Shown here piece by piece: positions 6,086-17,152 of a stretch of DNA of 20,579 bases. Both the position numbers and the translations under genes were made by a program. The first letter of the stretch is position 1, and the number at the start of each line of letters is the position of its first letter. Source of the DNA: a virus; the IMG/VR virus record IMGVR_UViG_3300024520_000593, positions 1 to 20,579 of that record. One strand, given 5' to 3'. The notes under the pieces are model-generated. The model had not been told where the DNA came from, searched no databases, and saw only the letters and a list, made by a program, of their open reading frames with translations.

Positions 6086-8818
6086 TCATGCTCCCGCCGC
6101 TTCGAGGCGACTTTCTAAATCAAATATTTTTTCTGTCAATTCTTGCACCGCCTTGATCAACGGAAACACAAACATGGATTTGCCTATCTGCTGCTCACCC
6201 GTTGGTGTTTGTTTCCATCCCGCAAAGTCATCCACACCGGCAGCATCCAGGGCTTGCCTGACATCCTGCGCCACCAGTCCGTGCATTACCTTTTCAGTGT
6301 TGACCGTGGTTCCCGGTTTAACTCCCCACTCATCGGGCCATTCAGTGGCTGGACGGAATTGGAATGTTTTTGGTCGCAGCGCATTGATGAAGTCCAGCCC
6401 CAATAGACTGGGCAGAATGTTGCGCTTTTTGCGCTCATCCGAGGTATTTGTCCAGACCGCATCGGTGCCGAAATCGTTTGATGTGATTGCGCCGGATTTG
6501 CCGATTGATGCTTGGTCGTCTGCTGTGGCGACGACTGTATCGCCAATACAGATTTGGTTGAGGGAGCCCGTTGCTGATGTGGCGGTGTCGTTGCCTACCA
6601 TCACGTTTTGACTGCCGGTGGTTACTATTGAGCAGGCGTTGAGCCCAATGCCGATATTGTCTATCCCGGTGGTGAGTTGATCCATTGCCTGCGAACCGAC
6701 CGCAGTGTTTCCTCCGGATGCGGAGCCGTTGGCGAGCAATCCCGCGTCTTTACCGAACCATGAGTTATTATCATCGCCAGCGCCCGCCTGTGATTTGCCT
6801 GCGTTAGACCCCGTCGCTGTGTTATTAATACCGGCAGAGTTGGTGAATAGTGCCTCGCTACCCATCGCCGTATTGTCCGACGCTCTATTTACCTTGAGAG
6901 CAGCGAACCCAACGGCCACGGTGTCCGTCACAGTTGTTGAGCCACCATCCCCTTTCATCGCCTCGTAGCCGACGGCCACATTTTGATCACCCGTGGTGAT
7001 TGCGTTCAGTGCCTTGTACCCAAAAGCAGCATTGAAGTTACCGCCACTCGCCAAGGCCGCCAAAGCTTCAAATCCAAAAGCAGTTACAGCGAACGTGTCC
7101 GTGGCTGCCGCTCCCGCTCCCGCTCCCATAATTGTGCTACTGGATGAAGTAGTCAGCGCCCCACCAGCATTGAAGCCCACGCATGTGTTGTCTATTCCGG
7201 TCAGCAGGGCGTCTAGGCAGAGGCTACCGACTCCCGTGTTGCCGCCCGATGCGCTGCCGTTTGCGACAGCGCCACAGTTATAGCCAATCCATGTGTTGTC
7301 ATCGTCGCCAGCACCAGCTTGAGCCGTTCCAGATTGGTATCCAACCGCAGTAACCCTTAGGGCTGCTGCGTTAGTGGACAGTGAATAAAAGCCTACTGCA
7401 ACAGTTCCCGTGGCTGTATTCAAATAACCAGCCCTGGTCCCTAGTGCCGTTGAGTTAGAACAATTCGCCAACCCAAGAGCAAGGTCGCCCACGCCCGCAT
7501 TAGACCCCTTGCTTGTAAGCCCCCACCCAGTGTCTGCACCAACTAGAACATTCCCTGAACCTGTGTTGATATTTTTCCCGGCCTCATTGCCTAAGCCTAC
7601 ATTTCGATCACCGGTCGTGAGCGCGGCGAGCGCAGAGGAACCTACCGCCGTCGCCTCCAATCCCCCCGAAACCAGTGCCGCGAGTGCGTTGAATCCAACA
7701 GCGGTACATCTTTCATTGTCAGTCGCCAAGGCCAAAGCCCCGGCACCAATAGCAACCAGCCCACTGGCAGTAGTAAGCGCCCCACCTGCATTGAAGCCCA
7801 TGCATGTGTTGTCTATTCCGGTGAGTAGGGCGTCAAGGCAAAGCGAGCCCACGCCCGTGTTGCCACCACTAGCAGAGCCGGTAGCGTACCTACCGCAGTC
7901 GTGACCCATCCAGGTGTTGTTGTCGTCGGTGGCTCCGGCCTGGGTTTGACCTGCTCGGTGGCCGACTGCGGTGTTTTGATTGCCGGTGATGTTCTGCTGC
8001 AAACATTCTGGGCCAATGGCAACATTCTCCGTACCCGAGGTGTTCTTCCATAAAGCCAGGAACCCCATGGCTGTGTTGTTGTGGGCGGTATTCACCTCCA
8101 ATGCCTGCGATCCAACTGCTGTGCATTGCGCATTATTTATCTGAGCATTGAGTGCGTTATATCCAATGGCTACACAATCATCCGCAAATTGACACGAGGC
8201 CAGTGTTCCGGGGCCAAGAGCCACATTTCTGAGTGCGCCCCCGCCTGTGTCAGCCGACAGCAACGACCCGGCACCAATACCGAGCGAGCCCGCATCAAGC
8301 GCTGAATTGAAAGCCAAGGCCGCGTTGGATTTCGGGGGCAGGGCGCCAGTCGCTGCGGTATAGAACCCGATGAAACAGGTAGTGTCTGCGGCCTCATCGG
8401 CCACGGTTGGCGGGTCGCTTGCATAGTTCGTCGCGTGAATGGTGCCGGCGCTCTCTGCCGCCCAGTCCACATGCTCGGCTGCAACAAAATCAGAGAAGGC
8501 ATCGTGGCCCGTGCCGGGGTTGAGGATGTTGCCTCCGATCAGATCGAGGTTTCCGCTGTCGTCGGCGGTCAATACACTCGTTCCGTTGACTGCCAAATCG
8601 AGGATTAAACTCGTCCCAGGCGCTGCCGTAGGGATCTGGTTCAAGCGGAGCAAAGTGTCGTTGCCACCAACCTTATTGACCGTGACATTCATATCCAGCG
8701 CAATCTCATTGGCGCTGGCGTGTTGCAAAGTAATGGGCAATAGCGCCGTGTCACCAACTTGGGGAGCCCCGCCCTGCGGGGTGCTTTCGTTGAGTGCAAG
8801 TAACTCTAATGCTGACAT
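6086..8818 (-). CDS. Tail fiber/spike with YadA-head-like repeats and S74 self-cleaving chaperone domain
   Basis: A 910-residue protein. Residues 1-110 are an N-terminal, probably virion-binding, segment. Residues about 150-775 consist of short repeats of the NTAVG/NVAIG type, each with an xAVGxxAL core and a TGxxN turn, the signature of trimeric left-handed beta-roll heads such as YadA. The C-terminal 118 residues are a peptidase S74 intramolecular chaperone. It begins at Ser793 in TSDERKKRNI, the conserved SDxRxKxxI cleavage site of endosialidase and T5 L-shaped fibers, continues with LRPKTFQFRP and HGLVAQDV, and ends in a coiled coil. The family is known to assist trimer folding and then cut itself off N-terminal to that Ser. 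A 67-residue module occurs three times (287-353, 494-560, 671-737). The ATG abuts the upstream TAG. This is probably the receptor-binding appendage; the receptor is unknown. Confidence 0.92.
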   Translation of the reverse strand: MSALELLALNESTPQGGAPQVGDTALLPITLQHASANEIALDMNVTVNKVGGNDTLLRLNQIPTAAPGTSLILDLAVNGTSVLTADDSGNLDLIGGNILNPGTGHDAFSDFVAAEHVDWAAESAGTIHATNYASDPPTVADEAADTTCFIGFYTAATGALPPKSNAALAFNSALDAGSLGIGAGSLLSADTGGGALRNVALGPGTLASCQFADDCVAIGYNALNAQINNAQCTAVGSQALEVNTAHNNTAMGFLALWKNTSGTENVAIGPECLQQNITGNQNTAVGHRAGQTQAGATDDNNTWMGHDCGRYATGSASGGNTGVGSLCLDALLTGIDNTCMGFNAGGALTTASGLVAIGAGALALATDNERCTAVGFNALAALVSGGLEATAVGSSALAALTTGDRNVGLGNEAGKNINTGSGNVLVGADTGWGLTSKGSNAGVGDLALGLANCSNSTALGTRAGYLNTATGTVAVGFYSLSTNAAALRVTAVGYQSGTAQAGAGDDDNTWIGYNCGAVANGSASGGNTGVGSLCLDALLTGIDNTCVGFNAGGALTTSSSSTIMGAGAGAAATDTFAVTAFGFEALAALASGGNFNAAFGYKALNAITTGDQNVAVGYEAMKGDGGSTTVTDTVAVGFAALKVNRASDNTAMGSEALFTNSAGINNTATGSNAGKSQAGAGDDNNSWFGKDAGLLANGSASGGNTAVGSQAMDQLTTGIDNIGIGLNACSIVTTGSQNVMVGNDTATSATGSLNQICIGDTVVATADDQASIGKSGAITSNDFGTDAVWTNTSDERKKRNILPSLLGLDFINALRPKTFQFRPATEWPDEWGVKPGTTVNTEKVMHGLVAQDVRQALDAAGVDDFAGWKQTPTGEQQIGKSMFVFPLIKAVQELTEKIFDLESRLEAAGA
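6608..7960 (-). repeat. Three copies of a 201-nt module inside the fiber gene
   Basis: Copies lie at about 7760-7960, 7139-7339 and 6608-6808. Each encodes the AGxxDDNNxW, GSASGGNT and LTTGIDN pattern. Copies 1 and 2 share near-identical DNA (for example CATGTGTTGTCTATTCCGGT), while copy 3 is more diverged. Spacings are 207 and 177 codons, so a longer block including the following repeats appears to have been duplicated. Confidence 0.8.
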
Positions 8819-11515: not shown

Positions 11516-12019
11516 TCAGTCGGTCAGAGCGTCACCTTGACGCATGTTGCGATAAGCGACTGACAAGTAAATCGTGCCGGTCGTGGAGTCCGTTGCCGGA
11601 TCCTGATCGACCGTAATGATTATCTTTCGGCTACTCGCTGAGTAACCAATGTCGTGGAATGCTCCACCGGCATTGGTGGGTCCAACCTGCTGTTGAAAGG
11701 TGGCTCCAGTTGTGAAACCGACCATGATGGCGTCTTCGTCCAGGGTGCCTGCGATCGACACACCCACATTCAACAGCGCCGTGGGTGTAGCGTGTTCGTC
11801 CAGCTCATCGGACGCCAGATAGCAACCGGTTGGGATAAGAACACAGTTCGGCGGTAGCCACATCGCTTCGATGGCGTCGTTGTCGTTCAGTGCGGCACCA
11901 GCGTTGTCGTTAGCGAGATCGAACACGAAGTCCGAAGTGATCTGTTCTTCGTCTACCGGGAGCGGAACCCTTGTGGGCATTCTGTTTAGCCCACTGGGCA
12001 ATGTGAAGATGGTTGCCAT
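11516..12019 (-). CDS. Putative head decoration protein, copy 2 (paralogue)
   Basis: A 167-residue protein clearly homologous to the gene just upstream. Both start with MAT and a TL..GLN segment, share ALNDND, YLAS-ELD-HATPT, a LNxGVSxxGTLDEDAI segment and an IGYS motif, and end in TD. Roughly half of the positions look identical by eye. It is a compact, beta-rich, acidic protein without cysteine-rich or membrane segments. Its location two genes after the capsid gene, size and duplication fit a cement or decoration protein that binds the capsid surface, though that is inferred. It is separated from copy 1 by an intrinsic terminator and has its own ribosome binding site (GAGAGGAAACAAATC before the ATG), so its level may differ from copy 1. 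Confidence 0.65.
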   Translation of the reverse strand: MATIFTLPSGLNRMPTRVPLPVDEEQITSDFVFDLANDNAGAALNDNDAIEAMWLPPNCVLIPTGCYLASDELDEHATPTALLNVGVSIAGTLDEDAIMVGFTTGATFQQQVGPTNAGGAFHDIGYSASSRKIIITVDQDPATDSTTGTIYLSVAYRNMRQGDALTD

Positions 12020-12112: not shown

Positions 12113-12634
12113 TTAATCGGTGTTGGTGTCGCCTGCCCGCTTCATGCGATAACCGATCGTCAACTCAATAACGCCAGTTACCGTGTCATCGGCTGGATTA
12201 CCTTCGACAGTGATACTCACCGCCCGGGCGCTATCGGAATACCCGATTGATTCAAACGCGCCTGTTGCTACCAAGGCGTTGTTTGGACCATTCTGGATTT
12301 GCCAGGTTGCGCCGACGGTGAACCCGTCAATAATGGCGTCTTCGTCCAGCGTTCCACCAACGGAAACACCGAGGTTTAACACCATTGTTGGCGTGGCGTG
12401 GTCGTCCAGCTCGCCGGATGCGAGATAGACAAGACCAGGAACCAGCACACACAGCGCCGGCAACCAGACCATCTCAATGACATCGTTGTCGTTTAACGCA
12501 ACACCGGGAGTCGATCCGTCAGTCGCGAGATCGAACTTGTGGCTCGCGGTGACAGGCGTATTGCTTACCGGAGTTGGAACACCCGTGAATGGGGCATGAT
12601 TCAGGCCAGCGGCCAGGGTCAATAAAGTAGCCAT
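12113..12634 (-). CDS. Putative head decoration protein, copy 1
   Basis: A 173-residue acidic, beta-rich protein immediately downstream of the major capsid gene, with a paralogue next to it (11516-12019). Shared motifs include GVALNDNDVIE, a YLASGELDDHATPT segment, GTLDEDAI and a C-terminal GYRMKRAGDT end. No capsid-protein or enzyme motif is visible. Small genes directly after the capsid gene in tailed phages often encode decoration (cement) proteins that occupy capsid surface sites, and the copy number of two adjacent paralogues fits that role by inference. A hairpin without a U-tract lies between it and the capsid gene, and a terminator follows it, suggesting that its expression is set near that of the capsid. 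The ATG is preceded by AAAGGAAAT at a suitable distance. Confidence 0.65.
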   Translation of the reverse strand: MATLLTLAAGLNHAPFTGVPTPVSNTPVTASHKFDLATDGSTPGVALNDNDVIEMVWLPALCVLVPGLVYLASGELDDHATPTMVLNLGVSVGGTLDEDAIIDGFTVGATWQIQNGPNNALVATGAFESIGYSDSARAVSITVEGNPADDTVTGVIELTIGYRMKRAGDTNTD

Positions 12635-12717: not shown

Positions 12718-13827
12718 TTACGGAGCGGCAGCAGCCACATCCACGGAGATAATGCCAAAGTCATCGCTATTGAACTGGCATTTCTTGATGCCGAAGATGA
12801 CATTTGATGTCACAACCAACTGGTTGCCACGGTCGTCAGTCTCTTCGTGCCAGTCGAACCGCAGGCCGGAGCCTGGTGATCCGAAGGCAATGACGCCAGC
12901 CTGCGCGCCCAGGAACAACGCCCGCGAAGCATCGACGTTGCTGCCGGCACCGTAGTCGCCGTAACGAATGACGCTCTTGTGCGAATGCAGCACAACACCA
13001 TCATGCAACCCGAGAGCGCCTTTGAAGATCGCGCTCTTGTTGCCGGTTGCGCCAGCAGCGGCCTTCTGGAGTTCCAACCAGTTGGACGCACCGGACGCGG
13101 TACGCAGGTCGAAAGCCGACCAGGGGTGCATCACCAGACAGTGATGTTCTTCGCCTTCAACCATGATCGGTCGAAGCTCACTCAACCCATCAGAACCACC
13201 GCCCTGTACGTCGGCCTTGGTCTTGACCTTTGAAATCAGGTCAGCAGTAACCACGCCAGCGGCTGTTACAGTCGCCTTTGTCGTTCCGTCGCCGTAAACG
13301 ATGTGATCAGCGTCGGGCGCTGTGAACGCATTGTTGCCGCGCCCGGTGTAACTGGCTTTGAAGATGTAGTTCGCCGACTTGTCGGACGTATTGGGACCGC
13401 CAGACAGGTACATGAAGAACTGCTCATCGAAGACACGAGACCAGTAATCTGACAGCCTGTTTCTGGCGATGGTCCGCAGGTTATGCAGCGTGCGCTTTCG
13501 CGTCATGCGGCCACCAGCGTTCACGCCGTGACGGGCTTGGTCGATGTAAACCGTGTCAGTGAAGTCGATCAGCGCCTCTTCGTTGCCTTCCAGGGTGTCG
13601 TCACCCTCGGTCGGCTCCTGCTTGAGTTGCATCGACAAATCGAAGCTGATTTGATCGCCAGCCTCGGATTCAAGATCGGTTAACCGCTGAATTGGATATG
13701 GAGAATCCGGCCCGTCACCCATGAACTTCTTGGTGAAGTATGCCTTTTTCCCAATATCAACCATCAGCTTCGCCGACCAGCGTTTTACCGCTTTTGCGTC
13801 GTTAAGACCCACGGTGGTGATAGCCAT
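12718..13827 (-). CDS. Major capsid protein, N4-gp56 family
   Basis: The protein has 369 residues. Residues 29-70 carry AYFTKKFMGDGPDSPYPIQ, and GDQISFDLSMQL follows. Residues 80-129 carry GNEEALIDFTDTVYIDQARH, with GVNAGGRMTRKRTLHNLRTI next and a RLSDYW helix. This order and wording are the signature of the N4-gp56-type capsid family (HK97-like fold). A later HCLVMHPWSAFDLR segment and the C-terminal GIKKCQFN segment also fit. Length is within the usual range for the family. The start ATG is preceded by AAAGGAG at seven bases. Many copies build the icosahedral shell around the scaffold. It is preceded by a scaffold gene and a CsrA-like gene and followed by decoration genes, the standard order of a head operon. 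Confidence 0.92.
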   Translation of the reverse strand: MAITTVGLNDAKAVKRWSAKLMVDIGKKAYFTKKFMGDGPDSPYPIQRLTDLESEAGDQISFDLSMQLKQEPTEGDDTLEGNEEALIDFTDTVYIDQARHGVNAGGRMTRKRTLHNLRTIARNRLSDYWSRVFDEQFFMYLSGGPNTSDKSANYIFKASYTGRGNNAFTAPDADHIVYGDGTTKATVTAAGVVTADLISKVKTKADVQGGGSDGLSELRPIMVEGEEHHCLVMHPWSAFDLRTASGASNWLELQKAAAGATGNKSAIFKGALGLHDGVVLHSHKSVIRYGDYGAGSNVDASRALFLGAQAGVIAFGSPGSGLRFDWHEETDDRGNQLVVTSNVIFGIKKCQFNSDDFGIISVDVAAAAP

Positions 13828-13871
13828 GTGGTACTCCTTTGGGATCGGGCACTACTGCGCCTGAATGGTTT

Positions 13872-13885
13872 TAGGGCCTGCCCTA
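13872..13885 (-). other. Small inverted repeat overlapping a stop codon
   Basis: TAGGGC and GCCCTA meet around a two-base centre, forming at best a 5-bp stem with a 4-nt loop. It includes the TAG of the CsrA-like gene and lies about 45 nt before the capsid ATG. It is too small for a convincing terminator, but it could be a protein-binding or RNA-processing site in front of the capsid gene. Confidence 0.25.
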
Positions 13886-14080
13886 CTGAGCAGCGCCGCC
13901 ATGCCGCCCGGGTCGTTCAAACCCAGGCGGGGTTGGCTCGGGCTCGTCGCCGTCGCCGTCTTGCGTTGTAAGTTCTTCAAGTTTTAAGCGGGCCTTGCGG
14001 CCGGATTTGTGTTCCAGCGTGATACGGACCTTGTTGACCGTTACGCTTTCGCCTGCGTCAAGCTCAAAGTGAAGCGCCAA
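13883..14080 (-). CDS. 65-residue CsrA-like protein in the head operon
   Basis: A small protein starting at a TTG (14080) three bases after the scaffold stop; no ATG is available in frame. Residues 3-35 align with the CsrA/RsmA core: HFELDAGESVTVN matches the LTRxxGExxxIG start, and VRITLEHKSGRKARLKLE matches the beta strands of CsrA up to its INAP segment. The Arg after that segment (CsrA Arg44), which binds RNA in genuine CsrA, and Arg near position 6 are not present. The remaining 25 residues are an acidic, Gly/Pro-rich tail. CsrA proteins bind GGA motifs near ribosome binding sites. If this one binds RNA, it could tune translation of the head operon; otherwise it is a structural fold relative. 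The alignment is by eye only. Confidence 0.55.
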   Translation of the reverse strand: MALHFELDAGESVTVNKVRITLEHKSGRKARLKLEELTTQDGDGDEPEPTPPGFERPGRHGGAAQ

Positions 14081-14998: not shown

Positions 14999-17152
14999 TT
15001 ACTCCTCGTGGATGTATTCGGCGGCAGAACCGCCCTCTTCCAAAAACCGATCTGCCGCTTGAACATCGCGGAGCGTCAGTTCGGCATCGGCCATACTCTT
15101 CGCGGCCTGCCCTTCCCGTTGGGCCGAAGTCGCTGACTTCGATCTGATCTCGGCCTGCGCAGCACCTTCTTCCAGGGCTTCCATGCGGGCCTCCTTGTCG
15201 GAGGCTTCGGCCTCGGCTTGCATTTGCATCTGCGCCTCTTGCGAGTTCGGGTCGGCGTTCGGATCCTTGACTCCCGTGAGGGAGCGAATGCGCCGTACAA
15301 TCTCGTCGCGTTGCGGCAGGTCGATCATCTCGACCACCAGATCAAGCAGGTTCAGGCCGATTTCTGGCGGCAATTGACCCACCAACTCAAGCAACTTCTC
15401 GCCGAGCGCCATGCGCATGGATTCGCGGAAGTCCTGCTGGTCAACCACGAAATCGGCGTGGGTACGGCTGATGTCGTTCTGCCACACCCACCGGCCCAGT
15501 TGCTCGTCAAAAAAGGGTTGATTGAGTTTCAGGAAGCTCAAGCCCCCTTGCCCTTCGCCCGCGATCCTGATCTGACGTTCCTTGATCATGAACTGCTCGG
15601 TCAGGCTCAGCATCTTTTCGCCACTGAGCTGGACGGCGAGCCGCAGATTGTCGAACAGGCCGGCAGAAGTCATCTGCCCCTGGTTCTGCTTCTTCTCGAC
15701 GGCAACACCGGACTGGCTGTTGGTCTCCAGGCCCATGTTCTCGCGAGTCACACCGGAAACGTCCATGATGTGATCCGCGTCCAACTGCATCAACTGGACA
15801 TGGCCCTGCTGAATGTCGGTGTTGTCCTTGATCTCGATCCGATTCCCACTGAGCGCCCCCGTTCGGACCTCAAGCATTCCGGCGGGGTTGGCGATCTGCG
15901 ACTGCCACTCGTCCACATCGGGAATCGAATCGGATTCGTAGAGCGTCTGCCGGGTTGACAGGATGTAGAGCGCCTTGCTCATGCGCTTGTTCAGGTCCAT
16001 CTGCGCGTCTTTCGCGCCGCGGATGAAGCCGTAGGGCATTCCGTCGCGATCGCGCCTGAAACACCAGATCGGCGTGAACGGGAAACGGTTGTGCGCGTAG
16101 GGCCGCTCTTTGTGGTACAGGAGCGTGCCGGGGATGAAGATGCAAACCTCCATCTGCATGGTGATCGCGTCAGTCAGGGTCGCCAGCCCGTTTTGGACCT
16201 CATCGACCATGTGTTCGTTTTTCTCGTCGTATGTCTCGCCGCCGAACGAATCGGCTGACCAGATGCGCTGATTACTCTTCGGCACCTTGTGCCAGCACTC
16301 GATGACACGTACCCGGCGGCGGGCCTTGCGTGGCGCGTCCACGATGCCGCTGTAGCTGGTCCGATACCGGCTGCGCCCATAGTGATCCACCTGTTGAAAC
16401 AGGGCGGGCAGATCAAAGTCCTCGTCGGGCGTTTCGCTGTTTGGAAAGATGTTCTGCGTCGCCTGCTCTACCAGGGCGCGGGCGTGCTTGGGGAAAAGTT
16501 CAACGGCAATATCCACATCGAGCCACAGCGAGCGGAACATGAACCGGCAATCGTCCATATCCAGTCGGCGCGATTGCGCATCCCACCAGACGTTGGCCCA
16601 ATGGAGATGACGTTGAAAGATTGGCTCCTCGTCCTCGTCGCCTCGGATGCCTTCTTCCATCCACCCGCAGCCGACCTTGGCCGCATCCTCAAACGCCTTG
16701 GAGCGTTCAAACGGTGTCCGCGATGTGTCGGAAATGTACTTGAGCAGAGCTTGCTTGAGATTCGCTTCCTGCAAATCTTCCTCAGTCCTGGGCAACACCT
16801 TGTGATCAACACGGGACCGGCGTTCGGAACCAATGATCCAATCAATCGCGATCTTGATCTTGTTGTAGACCAGCGGCGCTTGATTGCGAGCCCGCAGGAT
16901 TTGCATGTCTTCTTCGGTCCACTGAATGTGGTCGTAGAAATCAGCGTCGCCGCGCATCTCAATGCGGTTGTCGGCGTGGGCCTCACGGGTAATGAGCCAC
17001 CAGTCCTGAATCTTCTCCAGGCGCTGCTCGCGCTCTTTGGTCGTGAGTGTGCCGTCCTTGCGCTTGGCGGGCTTGGGTCCGTCCTCGTGGGTGCCTCCCT
17101 CGTCAAGCCCGGGCTGGTGCATTGGTTTGGTTCTGACGTTTTCAAATCCCAT
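14999..17152 (-). CDS. Portal protein, P22-like
   Basis: A 717-residue protein, close to P22 portal length (725). After a flexible basic N-terminus, residues 45-110 contain the helix DWWLITREAHADNRIEMRGD, with YDHIQWTEED and NKIKIAIDWIIGSERRSR next, typical of P22-type portals. Residues 371-398 hold GMPYGFIRGAKDAQMDLNKR followed by MSKALYIL, the best-conserved stretch. Residues 464-500 contain DVSGVTRENMGLETNSQSGV, then EKKQNQGQM. Residues 630-710 form a Gln/Ala/Glu-rich helix, resembling the helical barrel of P22 portal. Twelve subunits normally make the DNA channel and motor docking ring at one capsid vertex. GAGGG at the upstream stop codon serves as the ribosome binding site. The adjacency to scaffold and capsid genes supports the assignment. 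Confidence 0.9.
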   Translation of the reverse strand: MGFENVRTKPMHQPGLDEGGTHEDGPKPAKRKDGTLTTKEREQRLEKIQDWWLITREAHADNRIEMRGDADFYDHIQWTEEDMQILRARNQAPLVYNKIKIAIDWIIGSERRSRVDHKVLPRTEEDLQEANLKQALLKYISDTSRTPFERSKAFEDAAKVGCGWMEEGIRGDEDEEPIFQRHLHWANVWWDAQSRRLDMDDCRFMFRSLWLDVDIAVELFPKHARALVEQATQNIFPNSETPDEDFDLPALFQQVDHYGRSRYRTSYSGIVDAPRKARRRVRVIECWHKVPKSNQRIWSADSFGGETYDEKNEHMVDEVQNGLATLTDAITMQMEVCIFIPGTLLYHKERPYAHNRFPFTPIWCFRRDRDGMPYGFIRGAKDAQMDLNKRMSKALYILSTRQTLYESDSIPDVDEWQSQIANPAGMLEVRTGALSGNRIEIKDNTDIQQGHVQLMQLDADHIMDVSGVTRENMGLETNSQSGVAVEKKQNQGQMTSAGLFDNLRLAVQLSGEKMLSLTEQFMIKERQIRIAGEGQGGLSFLKLNQPFFDEQLGRWVWQNDISRTHADFVVDQQDFRESMRMALGEKLLELVGQLPPEIGLNLLDLVVEMIDLPQRDEIVRRIRSLTGVKDPNADPNSQEAQMQMQAEAEASDKEARMEALEEGAAQAEIRSKSATSAQREGQAAKSMADAELTLRDVQAADRFLEEGGSAAEYIHEE

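Follow-up and report, generated by a model that had tools for sequence, protein, structure and literature searches.

Proteins of the CsrA/RsmA/RsmE family (PF02599) are known to repress translation by covering the Shine-Dalgarno (SD) sequence of a target or to activate it by remodelling the leader (PMC7652899). Their consensus site, CANGGANG, is a hexaloop closed by a C-G pair, and canonical CsrA requires Arg6 and Arg44 (PMC6692469, PMC7652899). Changes at Arg44 and Arg6 are among those that most weaken RNA binding by E. coli CsrA, and in RsmE a salt bridge between Arg6 and Glu46 supports both structure and activity (PMC6692469). Homologues of CsrA are also encoded by phages, for which a list has been published (PMC7366521). 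In phage Mu, a short leader hairpin located beside an inhibitory structure is bound by the small protein Com, which thereby makes a late-gene start accessible (PMC6483171). The CsrA-like gene described here is itself already known (PHROG 8397), and genes at such loci have been annotated and published (PMC9144972, PMC10269572, PMC7366521), with the label of moron or host-type CsrA (PMC9144972, PMC10269572, PMC8310193). What is new here is a conserved, covarying hairpin in the leader of the capsid gene. On sequence and thermodynamic evidence, we consider it reasonably likely that these phage members of the CsrA family form a branch of trans-acting regulators which switch the translation of phage late genes, direct binding, direction of control and timing being putative.

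The window, which is the whole stretch of DNA that was analysed and comprises an entire IMG/VR record of 20,579 bases, is probably a fragment of a phage genome, and its minus strand carries phage late genes. The order within the head block on this strand is portal gene, scaffold-like gene, a 65-aa ORF and the major capsid protein gene (Table 1). Pfam, NCBIfam and PHROGs agree on the identity of the capsid gene, and the scaffold role of the gene preceding the ORF is suggested by its position and by its acidic, probably helical make-up. Right behind the capsid gene lie two neighbouring, clearly similar genes of ~170 aa (11516-12019 and 12113-12634, minus strand), which are an apparent decoration-protein duplication; relatives carry one virion structural (cement-like) gene there. 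Further along the same strand, positions 6086-8818 encode a 910-aa protein with many degenerate 'TAVGxxAL'-type repeats; its C terminus is similar to an intramolecular chaperone, and the protein probably serves as a tail fibre or adhesin.

Table 1. Coordinates of head-block features in the window
Feature	Position	Strand	Basis or remark
Portal gene	14999-17152	minus	head block
Scaffold-like gene, 303 aa	14084-14995	minus	PHROG 8246 (no function), 5e-22; same neighbour in relatives
CsrA-like protein gene, 65 aa, TTG start	13883-14080	minus	PHROG 8397, fold, L003 homologue, dN/dS
Non-coding leader of capsid gene, 55 nt	13828-13882	minus	from CsrA-like stop to capsid ATG (13827)
Leader hairpin CAGGCGC-AGTA-GTGCCCG	13846-13863	minus	GCGC-ANGA(N)-GTGC class; loop AGTA here
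SD AAAGGAG of capsid gene	13834-13840	minus	sequence
Major capsid protein gene, presumed target	12718-13827	minus	Pfam Phage_capsid_3 4e-60, PHROG 334, TIGR04387

The ORF is present as given in the preliminary description, beginning at a TTG three bases past the scaffold TGA; the strand, which that description left unnamed, is the minus strand. Its product matches the PHROG 8397 profile, 'CsrA-like regulator', over residues 1-34 (E=7e-7) and has a 78%-identical homologue in the same place in L003. The dN/dS between these two gene copies is ~0.23, indicating that the window protein is still under selection. A chance ORF is ruled out by these three results. When the window protein alone is compared with PF02599, no match is obtained even at E<=1; 14 of the 17 members of the alignment do match at E<=1 (best E=2e-9), and a profile of all 17 sequences, the window protein included, retrieves experimental structures of RsmE and CsrA (best E=4e-8). 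Structures were modelled with AlphaFold (AF2) as monomers only. The model of the relative L170 has a pLDDT of 83.5 and that of the window protein a pLDDT of 75, the latter covering the first four strands of a CsrA fold (residues ~2-36) and, from about residue 41, a poorly predicted tail in place of strand 5. The best PDB matches found by Foldseek were all CsrA/RsmA/RsmE proteins, 15 in a row for L170 and 13 for the window protein, with E-values that are modest (best 4.5e-3 and 0.098, respectively), as its small size leads one to expect, and 2jpp fits the L170 model at 0.9 A over 44 columns. We conclude that the ORF is a real gene and a CsrA relative; the CsrA-like fold and family proposed earlier are supported by the PHROG, profile and structure matches, the window model showing strands 1-4 only.

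It had also been noted that the RNA-binding arginines are missing, and this is indeed the case: position 6 of the window protein is Leu, and there is no strand 5 to align with Arg44, both strand 5 and Arg44 being gone from the L003 copy as well. Arg6 is found in 0 of 138 distinct family cores, its place being taken by Leu (73), Val (32), Ile (23) or Met (6), and position 44 is Arg in 33 cores and Lys in 24. Residues common among the same cores are Asp/Glu5 (110), Lys25 (121), Gly27 (127) and Arg31 (104). Going by these positions, the family is not canonical CsrA. Since the GG of the target is read via backbone groups of strand 5 and the preceding loop, the family may still bind RNA with altered side chains.

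Because the short CsrA-like alignment has no conserved stretches suited to contig profile scans, we anchored a survey of relatives on the capsid protein, which yielded 194 loci, and sought the CsrA-like gene in them with an iterated HMM. A relative of the gene was found in 159 of the 194 loci, nearly always immediately ahead of the capsid gene, and in 131 loci an ORF of 240-420 aa ends <=40 nt from its start. The preliminary description had suggested looking for conservation of the small gene between scaffold and capsid genes, and the gene does hold the same position in most relatives. Its claim that the position is unusual does not stand, as Bcep22-like phages and related ones have this arrangement as a rule and it had been published before; an unusual insertion is ruled out by the survey.

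The leaders that separate the CsrA-like and capsid reading frames measure 40-145 nt in 142 loci, and capsid leaders carry a hairpin of the form GCGC-ANGA(N)-GTGC. The strict pattern is present in 126 of 159 loci, compared with 0.8% of shuffles. The first scans demanded a C-G closing pair; when a repeat scan dropped that requirement, ANGA(N) hairpins were observed in 114 of 140 distinct leaders versus 28 of 475 control windows drawn from the coding sequence of capsid genes, and the closing pair was C-G in 107 of the 114. Five of seven stem pairs have changed on both sides, giving a covariation score of 0.277 as compared with 0.102 when shuffled (0/500; kinship not weighted), and every slid register scores below the true one. 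The phage motif, CANGA(N)G, is the CsrA site (C-ANGGAN-G) minus one G. The pattern match in the window falls at 13849-13860, and an RNA covariance model, R1, built from 51 leaders with a short calibration, matches the window at 13825-13863 (E=9e-6), the window leader being among the training sequences. The hairpin is kept in both the window and the L003 leaders.

A DNA-palindrome site is unlikely, since stem position 2 is usually G-T (G-U in RNA; 111 of 131) and the functional-looking sites are sense-oriented to their genes. A known Rfam element is ruled out: no match at the gathering score was obtained in 10 loci, and the window leader gave only a chance-level match (E=8.9). Neither Rfam nor the open-licence papers searched describe the hairpin. 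The preliminary description had pointed to the GGA of AAAGGAG as the kind of sequence that CsrA recognises; this is an ordinary SD and non-specific, and the hairpin that immediately precedes it is more likely to be the element recognised. The broader idea of regulation through the capsid leader fares better, because an ANGA hairpin, here and at other late genes, appears to track the CsrA-like gene. Small ORFs right ahead of the capsid gene in L038 and L064 look like strongly diverged CsrA-like genes that were missed by the HMM, and L038 also retains a variant hairpin. A GIY-YIG homing endonuclease-like ORF lies between the CsrA-like and capsid genes in L004 (L004:1298-1915), and the usual leader hairpin was not found at this place. 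In relatives that lack the CsrA-like gene (L123, L125, L133, L144 and L097), the capsid gene is preceded by other recurrent strings (~CATAGCC or TATAGCTCCTCTG), which may represent a promoter or a different control element.

Most capsid leaders have a 3' arm (GA-N-GTGC) that can pair alternatively with bases just ahead of the AUG (GCAC-N-TC), and the pairing of a leader's own arm and pre-AUG bases beats swapped pairing to an extent that 0 of 20000 permutations reach (kinship not weighted). Computed native ensembles correspond to a closed state, with a median hairpin probability of 3e-5 and a median open-SD probability of 1e-5. When the hairpin is forced, the predicted median SD openness is 0.010, compared with 6e-6 without the hairpin, and more than twofold opening of the SD is obtained in 53 of 65 leaders (82%) versus 33% of shuffled controls. 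These predictions are consistent with a switch in which the ribosome site would be closed by default, through pairing of the 3' arm just ahead of the AUG, and in which the CsrA-like protein would bind or hold the hairpin, thereby freeing the SD and turning capsid translation on, as Com does for mom in phage Mu. The presumed target would be a hairpin with a GCGC/GTGC stem and the motif C-ANGA(N)-G, ~25-60 nt ahead of the capsid start codon.

The leader of the window itself is predicted to form the hairpin unaided (P=0.96), and forcing the hairpin barely alters SD openness, as is likewise found for the L003 leader. Taken together with the missing strand 5 and the loop AGTA, the weak alternative fold suggests that control in the window may be relaxed or altered. 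The same features, along with the low-confidence tail of the protein, would also fit a copy that has lost its regulatory function in the window lineage and is degenerating or repurposed, the family as a whole being a regulator. We regard such a loss as rather unlikely, given that the dN/dS relative to L003 points to a gene still constrained and that the hairpin is conserved in both leaders.

Whether a hairpin is present in a given phage appears to follow the CsrA-like gene and not the capsid family. R1 matches 22 of 22 phage records or contigs with the gene and 0 of 5 without it, many of the matches being in genomes that trained the model. The hairpin is lacking in loci of the same capsid family (L123, L133, L144, L152 and L189) for which a search of the whole genome found no CsrA-like gene. 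There are also two cases of a hairpin in a genome in which no CsrA-like gene was found, namely a strong one in L120 and a weak variant in L158. The capsid and scaffold genes are far apart in PBC5, Atu_ph08 and rhizobial prophages, where the hairpin accompanies the former and the CsrA-like gene remains behind the latter. We count this retention of the hairpin in phages with separated genes in favour of an action in trans, to which it would point. It also bears on the reading, raised as an alternative in the preliminary description, of a CsrA fold reused structurally, which would make the protein a minor component of the virion or its assembly and leave the hairpins with another reader or purpose. 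In favour of such a role are the head-operon position in 159 of 194 loci, the disappearance of Arg6 throughout the family, and one unique peptide of JC1 gp47 detected in CsCl-purified virions (PMC9144972). However, the authors of that study call this lone peptide not definitive. When scaffold and capsid genes are separated, moreover, it is the scaffold gene that the CsrA-like gene accompanies, and among phages with a common capsid family the gene's presence goes along with that of a CsrA-like RNA hairpin. We regard a virion part as an unlikely reading.

The hairpin is not confined to capsid genes. It is found in sense orientation shortly ahead of the endolysin/lysozyme start in PBC5, Atu_ph08, POI1126, Itty13, Pavtok and Skulduggery, ahead of the DarB start in PBC5, Atu_ph08 and POI1126, and ahead of virion-protein genes in POI1126 (gp21 and gp26) and Atu_ph08 (gp23); it also precedes the scaffold gene in 19 of 140 loci. 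At a few sites the annotated start overlaps the hairpin, and there the next ATG was used. Among non-capsid sites, 42 of 119 have a start codon with an SD downstream of them, compared with 4 of 68 for the reversed pattern. Where a locus has a second site, this site and the capsid site are of one stem type (GCGC/GTGC or TCGC/GTGA) in 32 of 32 cases, as expected of one shared reader, although relatedness contributes too. A late-gene regulon appears to exist, in which the endolysin, DarB, virion-protein and scaffold genes of relatives would carry the same target as the capsid gene. In scaffold leaders the loop, AGGA(G), or else the 3' arm is often the SD itself; where loop or arm overlaps the SD in this way, as it does in some relatives, binding would turn translation off. 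It is about an even call, leaning slightly against, that a CsrA branch with an altered RNA surface and site (ANGGAN to ANGA/ANGAN) activates translation of capsid, DarB and endolysin genes and, in a subset of phages, is a repressor of the scaffold gene that tunes the scaffold-to-capsid ratio. Six loci of the rhizobial type (L018, L137, L147, L148, L151 and L161) have a capsid gene and a divergent endolysin gene, each with its own sense hairpin, back to back. In the group with TCGC/GTGA stems (L040, L041, L042, L043, L049, L050, L066, L073, L076, L088, L090, L091 and L112), protein position 26 is Lys/Arg in 13 of 13 cases, versus 4 of 84 in the GCGC/GTGC group. This link is a possible instance of protein-RNA co-evolution, or perhaps just one clade, for which reason it is not used as proof.

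Hairpins close to the 5' end can stabilise mRNA. The element could be a passive 5' stabiliser, or be read by a host factor (host CsrA, a ribosomal protein or a nuclease), and merely travel with the CsrA-like gene in one lineage; the co-occurrence statistics ignore kinship, and L120 has a hairpin without a detected gene. We find this explanation quite improbable, since loop and stem are conserved in sequence and not merely in fold, since stem types change in concert within genomes, and since F116, which lies outside the R1 training set and has a different gene order, retains both gene and hairpin (three R1 matches, best E=3e-7). In addition, Bcep22-like phages have Burkholderia hosts in which a chromosomal csrA is reported to be missing (PMC7366521). 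The published annotation and the label of moron suggest a horizontally acquired host-type CsrA that reprogrammes genes of the host for carbon storage, biofilm or virulence (PMC9144972, PMC10269572, PMC8310193), and plasmid homologues such as RsmQ do act on host targets (PMC9928087). This reading is very hard to reconcile with its fixed head-block position across many genera, the loss of the canonical RNA-contact arginines and the phage-encoded set of hairpins. The CsrA-like gene is probably the phage's own virion-protein switch and not a stray host gene.

If the switch proposed here is correct, a gene that in many phages is labelled a moron or a carbon storage regulator of host type becomes a phage's own regulator of virion assembly and lysis, and a protein of the CsrA fold has changed its target site and lost its canonical arginines. 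Genome annotation would gain a new RNA element, the scaffold, capsid and lysis genes would be linked at the level of translation, and many unannotated small ORFs ahead of capsid genes would become interpretable.

Among described proteins, the window protein is by profile a member of PHROG 8397, together with BcepIL02 gp49, JC1 gp47, Pavtok gp9 and Parlo gp62, with which it shares the position between scaffold-like and capsid genes; it differs, as does the L003 copy, in lacking strand 5 and Arg44. The PHROG annotation does not say on which phage gene the regulator would act, and the open-licence papers searched describe no RNA element. RsmM, RsmQ and similar proteins are likewise CsrA-family members carried on phages and plasmids (PMC7366521, PMC9928087), RsmQ differing in that it acts on host functions. 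F116 and H66 have been placed with RsmM (PMC7366521); in our analysis F116 gp47 shows the features of the head-module proteins, an aliphatic residue at position 6 and a KKSG turn, and F116 carries the hairpin. The proposed mode of action would, if the model is right, resemble that of Mu Com, with relief through the hairpin predicted for most leaders and weak in the window. Com is a zinc finger of unrelated fold with one target, mom, whereas here a CsrA fold would serve several late genes. With CsrA/RsmA/RsmE (PF02599), the phage family shares fold, size and the A-N-G-A loop order closed by C-G near the SD. It differs from them in having Leu, Val, Ile or Met for Arg6 in essentially all members with Arg44 mostly lost, in its signature Lys25-(Ser/Thr)26-Gly27, in a loop, ANGA/ANGAN, that is one G shorter than ANGGAN, and in a predicted target set of a few phage late genes, in contrast to the global host network of CsrA.
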